From the NCBI RefSeq assembly GCF_026004055.1, contig NZ_BPIJ01000001.1, positions 1,054,001-1,118,000 of the forward strand: DNA of 64,000 bases. Direction: 5' to 3'. The notes under the pieces were generated by a model that worked only from the letters and a program-made list of their open reading frames with translations, made no database searches and was not told where the DNA came from. The position numbers and the translations under genes were made by a program. This stretch comes from Meiothermus sp. GTDB lineage: Bacteria > Deinococcota > Deinococci > Deinococcales > Thermaceae. Positions 24,592 to 25,622 of the stretch are shown piece after piece (within the stretch, counting starts at the first letter, position 1; each line of letters begins with the position of its first letter).

Positions 24592-24746
24592 TTCGGCTTA
24601 TTCTAGGGCATTGATTATCTGACCTTAACCACAATCTGCAAACCAATGCACGGTTGACCCATCTTTGCAGGCTGGAGAGAGATAAAACGCTCTTCGCATC
24701 TTTTGAGCCATCCGGCTCTGAGAAAGCTTTGTCCCGGAAAAAACAG

Positions 24747-24902
24747 TGGCCGCCCGAAAACTCAAAGTCCCAAGCACCCGTGGGCCGCCCGGCCCACGCC
24801 CCAGTGCGTAACATGCGTCTGGGCCTAGACGCAACATAGACAAGCGTGTCTCACCGAGGTGAGGCACATCTGCTTGCCCCTTTTTGTTTTCGTGGGCGGC
24901 CA
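24747..24902. other. Strongly self-complementary 156-bp intergenic element (candidate structured RNA or MITE)
   Basis: The two ends pair: TGGCCGCCCGAAAAC (24747-24761) against GTTTTCGTGGGCGGCCA (24886-24902), with a 2-base bulge. Inside are three separate perfect hairpins: CGTGGGCC-GCCC-GGCCCACG, TGCGTCT-GGGCC-AGACGCA (about 24809-24830) and CAAGC...CTCACC-GA-GGTGAG...GCTTG. T tracts lie at both exits: CCCCTTTTTG on the plus strand before the right arm, and TTTTTT just after the stem when read on the minus strand. No protein frame of merit. The 365-base gap 24592-24956 holds nothing else except a terminator at 24916. Confidence 0.5.
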
Positions 24903-24915
24903 CGTCGAACGTGAT

Positions 24916-24939
24916 AAGCCCCGCCATGAAGCGGGGCTT
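24916..24939 (-). terminator. Probable terminator after the V/A-ATPase operon
   Basis: AAGCCCCGC (24916-24924) and GCGGGGCTT (24931-24939) form a 9-bp stem, 18 bases after the subunit D stop. There is no strong T tract on the minus strand, so it may act with the structured element beyond it. Confidence 0.5.
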
Positions 24940-24956
24940 GCAAATAACCTTGCTCG

Positions 24957-25622
24957 CTACAACCCTGCGCCTTTTTCGATGTGGGCCGAGACCTCCCCGG
25001 TCTCTTCGGCCTCGCGGCGCAAAATGGCAGCCTTAATGCGCTTGAGGGTGGTCACTTCCTCCAGCGCCCGCTGGTCAAGGGTATCGGTAACAAACTTGAT
25101 CTGCTCGTTGATCTCGGGAATCGAGATTTGCTCGAGCGCGTTCACCCTGCGGTTGGTCTTCTTGATTTCCTCGCCGATCTTGCGTAGGCGGTTCTCGGTG
25201 TTGGCCACTGCAATGATGGCCTCGGCCAGCGCCCGGAAGGCCGTGGCGGCCTCGAGGGTCTTGGCCCCCACCCCAATCGGGCTAAAGGACAGGCTCCCGC
25301 TCGAGGCCGGGGCGGTAATCCTGGGCACTTTTACCCCGTAGAGGCTCTCAATTTGCATTTGAACCTCGATGGGAGTGCCCGAAAGCGACTCTACCGCCTC
25401 GGGCGTGTCGAAGGCCTTGGCAATCAGCAGGCTGAAATAGGCGTCCTTGGCCGCGTTGTTGAGGGCCTCACGGGCTTTCAGCGAGTCCTGCACCAGGGCA
25501 AAAAACTCGCCGATCAGGGCATCCCGCTTATTTTTCAGCAGTTCCACACCCTGCAAAGCCAGCCGCTTCTGGTCGCGCTTGGCCAGCAGGGTGGAACGGG
25601 TCGGTGAGACTTGTTCAGCCAT
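24957..25622 (-). CDS. atpD: V/A-type ATPase subunit D
   Basis: Length is 221 residues from the ATG at 25622, with GGAGGTG just upstream. The signature start SPTRSTLLAKRDQKRLALQGVELLKNKRD and long N- and C-terminal helices (heptad-like) are typical of the central rotor shaft subunit D. The C-terminal helix contains RRVNALEQISIPEINEQIKFV. It rotates inside the A3B3 head and couples it to the membrane ring with subunits F and C. It is the last gene of the operon, as in Thermus. Confidence 0.95.
   Translation of the reverse strand: MAEQVSPTRSTLLAKRDQKRLALQGVELLKNKRDALIGEFFALVQDSLKAREALNNAAKDAYFSLLIAKAFDTPEAVESLSGTPIEVQMQIESLYGVKVPRITAPASSGSLSFSPIGVGAKTLEAATAFRALAEAIIAVANTENRLRKIGEEIKKTNRRVNALEQISIPEINEQIKFVTDTLDQRALEEVTTLKRIKAAILRREAEETGEVSAHIEKGAGL

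Follow-up and report, generated by a model that had tools for sequence, protein, structure and literature searches.

The locus downstream of atpD

The window, which is the whole 64-kb stretch of Meiothermus DNA that was analysed, contains a terminator hairpin at 24916-24939, beyond atpD, and a strongly folded repeat that adjoins it, confirming the location given in the initial annotation. The 156 bases reported there (24747-24902) consist of two closing arms, TGGCCGCCCGAAAAC and GTTTTCGTGGGCGGCCA, which pair with a two-nucleotide TG bulge and enclose three hairpins. The positions of the arms and hairpins were correct, although the arms enclose 124 bases and not 125. All three hairpins had been described as perfect; hairpin 1 (24779-24798) is indeed a perfect 9-bp stem, whereas hairpin 2 pairs at nine of its ten positions and hairpin 3 (24846-24867) contains a single T.G position, and is thus not perfect as DNA. 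T tracts had likewise been noted at the exits of both strands. There is one on the minus strand (TGTTTTTTCC), but the plus-strand exit reads CACGTCGAACG, and the T run of that strand (24881-24891) lies inside the closing arm.

Both strands of the 156-base stretch were folded as RNA and compared with dinucleotide shuffles (n = 200 for each strand). The plus strand gave -82.7, against -54.9 +/- 4.3 in the shuffles (z -6.5), and the minus strand gave -86.8, against -64.2 +/- 4.2 (z -5.3), and on neither strand did any of the 200 shuffles fold as well. Rfam returned no match at the gathering score across the window, and none up to E 1 on 24680-24920, in keeping with the earlier remark that no known RNA family could be recognised; a fixed-rule scan found no terminators within 24600-25000.

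The 156-base stretch forms the inside of a mobile repeat that is scattered over the genome, which we named E1. Copies elsewhere align with the window copy past the reported arms on both sides, and by this alignment the original extent was too short (Table 1).

Table 1. Parts of the window copy of E1, in window coordinates.
Feature	Position	Strand	Basis
Whole E1 element, right end decayed	24685..24914	+	alignment with other copies past the reported arms
TA at left end (putative target dinucleotide)	24683..24684	.	family pattern (left TA in 53/67 minimal copies); window letters
Left terminal inverted repeat AAACGCTCTTCGCA (family form GAGCGCTCTTCACA)	24685..24698	+	letters and alignment
Left closing arm: minimal-E1 inner stem plus first bases of the nested insertion	24747..24761	+	letters; minimal copies
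Nested insertion, 134 bp, in the minimal-E1 loop	24759..24892	+	comparison with L110, L114 and L120; alignment A1
Hairpin 1, degenerate member of the CGCA-xyz-AAGC family	24770..24808	-	model R1, 18.2 bits, E 0.04; better-kept own copies fit the motif
Hairpin 2, TGCGTCTGGGCCTAGACGCA	24814..24833	.	letters; own-copy comparison
Hairpin 3, member of the 45-nt family (H3), first bases decayed	24835..24879	+	row of alignment A2; 57.4 bits with model R1
Right closing arm	24886..24902	+	letters
Right terminal repeat remnant CGTCGAACGTGA (family form CGTCTGTGAAGAGCGCGA)	24903..24914	+	letters; other copies
TA at right end	24915..24916	.	family pattern (right TA in 53/67 minimal copies); window letters

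We read by eye the spacer downstream of atpD, a gene present in all 18 genomes of the genus. The alignment of this region in relatives had been proposed as a check, and the element is not kept there. In G001, G007 and G012 the spacer runs on to a small ORF with no element of the E1 kind; G010 has an E1 that faces the other way; repeats of a different type (E3, described below) occupy the spacer in G003, G014 and G016; G009 contains degenerate pieces that are E1-like in look; and the remaining genomes show other genes there, or no repeat that we recognised. Thus, the window copy was inserted locally, and the operon does not carry it as a conserved component.

Copies, ends and placement of E1

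A full E1 starts with GAGCGCTCTTCACA directly after a TA, and ends with TGTGAAGAGCGC, followed by TG or GA and a second TA. We identified 71 core copies, with unrelated flanks, in the genome to which the window belongs (3.18 Mb, 3 contigs); among the 71 fetched entries one (L030 minus) was the other strand of another (L030 plus), and one copy (L053) was added. With a core pattern there were 40 matches in the forward direction and 41 in the reverse, some of them one palindrome read twice, and none in either control; a query with 24740-24910, for which 40 of 123 candidates were scored, matched at least 53 times. Seventy measured copies, composites included, span 39,839 bases.

Outside this genome, the window element was matched in 9 of the 18 genus genomes. 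A minimal form of E1, 107 bp in length, was matched in 15 of 50 genomes of the family, comprising 12 of 18 in its own genus and 1/2, 2/2, 0/27 and 0/1 in four others. All named matches to the E1 end pattern were from Meiothermus (23 stretches, own-genome records possibly being excluded). E1 provides a mapped, TA-flanked MITE for Meiothermus.

The minimal form has GCCGCC, a six-base loop and GGCGGC in place of the window interior (L110, L114, L120), and such interior-free copies occur both in the own genome and in others. We aligned minimal copies of ten genomes, 64 different sequences in all (alignment A1). The terminal inverted repeats form a 12-bp outer helix that is 92.0% paired over the 64 rows, with TA at the ends, as in TA-type MITEs. 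Across 67 rows, including three repeated sequences that were dropped for the 64-row alignment, TA flanks the left end in 53, the right end in 53 and both ends in 43, and is absent on the left in 14 and on the right in 14. At 107 bp, the minimal form is within the size of short, non-coding dispersed units (below about 200 bp), and copies above this length are composites formed by nesting. According to the initial annotation, numerous scattered copies flanked by target duplications would mark the repeat as a MITE; the dispersal is plain and the flanks are consistent with a TA target, although we found no strict empty site with a single TA for E1, the atpD spacers of relatives being too different.

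The named structure of minimal E1 is 92.3% paired over 64 rows. Its inner stem, which is followed by CGTC, occurs as GTGGCCGCC, GTTGCCGCC, GTGGCCTCC and GTTGCCTCC, each paired with the complementary sequence. RNAalifold, run on the 64 minimal copies, gave three meaningless pairs, and we instead counted changes on the named structure. Double-change cells numbered 27 in the 64 rows, against 7.2 +/- 2.4 in shuffles; double changes occurred at 6 of 21 pairs, a value reached by 112 of 500 shuffles, and the covariation evidence for minimal E1 is therefore moderate. The six-base loop (A1 columns 77-82) is found in both orientations, as GAT/GAG in 33 and as ATC/CTC in 16 of the 64 copies, indicating an arm-to-arm exchange at the level of DNA, which could yield matching changes without selection on an RNA. 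The two orientations are reverse complements of each other, and are found even within one genome (L110, L114).

A crude ORF caller placed none of 70 copies within a gene. Convergent genes surround 31 of them, tandem genes 28 and divergent genes 9, and 2 are unassigned, these being raw counts. Of 134 E1-type ends, left and right, 20 have a coding-like ORF end no more than 12 bases away, and in 16 of these 20 it falls exactly at TA+G, that is TAG. For the companion repeat E2, 10 of 109 ends have a nearby ORF end, 7 of them exactly at the stop. Thus, in many cases a stop codon supplies the TA, the left end of the element lying exactly on it and the first G of the element remaking the stop. This placement may simply be tolerated, with no targeting required; copies would persist where they are harmless, between genes and at stop codons. 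The many copies in stop codons illustrate a route to persistence in a compact genome.

Nested repeats and the 43-45-nt hairpins

Many own-genome copies of E1 contain a second repeat, either E2 (GTGGTCTGG...CCAGACCAC) or E3 (TACCGGATTC...), entered at one fixed point of E1 (GGGGAC-TAA-GAATC), with TAA on both sides of the nested repeat. The resulting composites are mostly no longer than about 900 bp, and two reach 1152 and 1416. The reported interior is a later nested insertion, in the loop of minimal E1, carrying two members of a separate hairpin family of 43-45 nt. The G003 and G014 copies that were read (L044, L045) have hairpins 1 and 2 without hairpin 3, CAGACGCA being directly followed by TTCTCG. 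Hairpin 1 is absent from four or more of the copies in this genome (L007, L008, L030, L035), and most other own copies have a further insertion at the centre of hairpin 2, which the window copy lacks. The nesting record of E1 can be read stepwise, from the 107-bp core, through the two-hairpin form of G003 and G014, to the full form here, and the degree of nesting is unusual. Two composites (L017, L056) adjoin a further repeat at a TTTTCGCCACCTTA junction, as if inserted there, and in L101:500-1300 (reverse complement) an E1 composite contains E3 and, after it, a fragment of the IS630 transposase gene.

Hairpins 1 and 3 are members of one strongly covarying 43-45-nt family (H), with the plan CGCA-xyz-AAGC-stem-TGCTTG. 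In better-kept copies, hairpin 1 follows this plan on the minus strand, in 18 distinct units, with none in a reversed-sequence control. Across 11 H units (alignment A2), CGCA, AAGC and TGCTTG are nearly fixed, 96.3% of cells are paired and double changes are seen at 10 of 15 pairs, a value reached by 0 of 500 shuffles; these units were hand-picked from those found, some are related and the structure was drawn from the same units, so that the controls lean in favour of structure. Model R1, built from these units and with the window H3 itself as a row, matched only the window element in the 64-kb window (E up to 0.5), and Rfam gave no family for five H loci, with three weak matches at chance level. 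Viral contigs, plasmids and phages gave no match to the H pattern, an H unit or E1 in the combinations tried, and, within the open literature searched and the terms used, titles and abstract openings gave no account of E1 or H elements and no paper joined Meiothermus with miniature inverted repeats.

A search for lone H3 units in 19 genomes identified 8 places in three of them (G005, G008, G021). In G008, H3 lies inside an IS630-type transposase gene, two homologues of which are without it (aligned gap of 50 versus 3 nt). In G005, it is carried by four copies of an IS5-family element, and in G021, from another genus, an IS5-type gene has H3 at the same codon position as the G005 IS5; homologues of this IS5 on Deinococcus plasmids read SFAWL, with no insert. 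The other lone places are L248 and L249. The insertions fall between ER(T/S)(F/L) and AW in IS5 and between SPDL and NPIE in IS630, both of which we take to be the DDE glutamate motif. Counting by eye gave an insert of 47 nt for E1, IS630 and the G005 IS5, and of 46 or 47 for G021, and a comparison by eye of the E1, IS630 and IS5 sites found no consistent target duplication. The 45-nt units within the two kinds of transposase gene are located at L245:1507-1551, L246:1502-1546 (minus) and L244:1508-1552 (minus).

Probable movement of E1 and comparison with known repeats

We consider it highly probable that the window copy is a decaying E1, a TA-targeting MITE of Meiothermus that was moved in trans and whose interior was nested later. 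E1 would be a non-autonomous DNA transposon (MITE) with a TA target, for which the transposase is supplied in trans, most likely from an element of the IS630 kind, and its movement by transposition is what the dispersed, TA-flanked copies suggest. The companion repeat E2 offers the closest guide. In G012, an IS630-family transposase ORF lies between E2-type ends (L219:1362-2568), and in G009 an IS630-family ORF is begun by an E2-type end and stops at the contig end (L220:887-2091). E2 is thus very likely, on these sequences, a MITE of an IS630 element. None of 28 IS630 loci, 2 IS5-type loci and 86 E1 end pairs (lengths up to about 850, none above 900 bp) yielded a transposase gene with E1 ends, and the link of E1 to IS630 is therefore one of analogy, based on its TA flanks, the E2 ends common to an IS630 element and the presence of IS630 elements in the genus. 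A further point against the MITE reading is the conserved inner stem of minimal E1, which exceeds the needs of a plain MITE.

Several candidate partners for E1 were rejected. The IS5-type transposase (PF13340) was ruled out, its two loci being without E1 ends, and the IS630 element of the own genome (L098-L100) has TACCAA ends. A match beside an IS630 gene in G008, considered as an autonomous E1, is the lone H3 inside the transposase gene. The own-genome IS630 element is present as three identical copies of about 1.1 kb, flanked by TAA, TAA and TTC, and one copy lies within an E3 repeat.

A structured RNA was the reading favoured in the initial annotation, with a terminal-inverted-repeat element given as the other possibility; it is this second reading that the terminal repeats and dispersed copies bear out. 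Were the sequence a structured non-coding RNA, or one acting in cis on the ATPase operon, with a functional closing stem and branched interior, this would account for the strong fold on both strands and for the paired changes seen in the minimal-E1 inner stem and the H hairpins. However, the sequence is dispersed in high copy number, is not conserved at this locus in relatives, has no Rfam match and exists in minimal copies without the interior, and the loop flips point to an exchange between the arms in DNA that is able to make matching changes. We thus regard a functional RNA as very unlikely. Covariation is no proof of an RNA gene here, because a mobile DNA repeat carries it to unrelated sites, and E1 serves as a caution that a strong fold and covariation alone do not establish one. 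E1 probably has no host function.

A different question is whether the H hairpins move by themselves, recognised by their structure, for example by a single-strand tyrosine (HUH) enzyme as in REP/RAYT or IS200/IS605, with E1 as their carrier. In favour of this are the lone units that G005, G008 and G021 have within transposase genes and elsewhere, the occurrence of E1 with and without H3 across species, the invariant CGCA, AAGC and TGCTTG with stems changing in step, and the lack of a consistent target duplication; nevertheless, the lone sites are few, and the insert of 46 or 47 nt has ambiguous edges. On balance we view independent movement as a possibility, and a rather doubtful one. It is with similar reserve that we suggest hairpins 1 and 3 might represent a new class of tiny, structure-recognised mobile units that insert without duplication into repeats and transposase genes. 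Equally speculative is a further part of the same reading, that insertion at the DDE glutamate motif knocks out transposases and so shapes the mobile-element population, perhaps via an HUH-type recombinase. Should the family prove able to move independently, its members would rank with the smallest mobile units known to us, and they would have hit active-site codons of two unrelated transposase families in two genera.

The same insertions could instead leave the genes functional, if the H units were skipped or removed, as a mini-intron or by ribosome bypass. Inserts of 46-47 nt, found at conserved motifs of two families of transposase and in two genera, would fit this, as would the open frames flanking the insert in L245 and L246 and its presence in four G005 IS5 copies. 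The IS630 host gene, however, has other frameshifts, and internal deletions are apparent in three of the four G005 copies, features that fit dead genes moved in trans; we consider functional bypass very improbable. Under the preferred reading, of a MITE with a later nested interior, E1 is a new TA-type MITE that is ordinary in kind, and the novel part is the hairpin family in transposase genes.

Among known repeats, those closest to the H units are the REP sequences associated with RAYT, described as short hairpins with GTAG or CGTC tags, with subfamilies that have alternative complementary stem bases, and with some members inside genes (PMC3733652); the main text of that paper does not mention Meiothermus, Thermus or Deinococcus. 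The H units share with that description the short hairpins, the complementary stem alternatives and the location of some within genes. They differ in being 43-45 nt long, in having CGCA, AAGC and TGCTTG as invariant parts and in lacking a terminal GTAG; instead of the GTAG or CGTC that marks one end of a 20-40-bp REP hairpin, they start with CGCA and end with TGCTTG(G/T)CC (alignment A2).

For E1 itself, a precedent is RUP of Streptococcus pneumoniae, a 107-bp, non-coding repeat with a TA target and IS630-Spn1 as its likely mover (PMC2229807). In the account given there, RUP resembles E1 in its length, TA, lack of coding capacity and likely IS630 mover, the difference being that no IS630 element with E1 ends was found, only one for the companion E2. 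The same source describes the Correia/NEMIS repeats of Neisseria, of about 107 and about 155 bp, the longer form having an internal insert, with terminal inverted repeats, TA ends and a stem-loop (PMC2229807). These are, as described, like E1 in their minimal size, longer insert form, terminal inverted repeats, TA ends and stable stem-loop, whereas sequence and host differ and E1 has several nested hairpin modules; Correia repeats also have a 50-bp insert and an IHF motif. Within the same phylum, the small noncoding repeats (SNRs) of Deinococcus radiodurans are described as mosaic and of high copy number (PMC1978522), and in this textual description they resemble E1 on both points.
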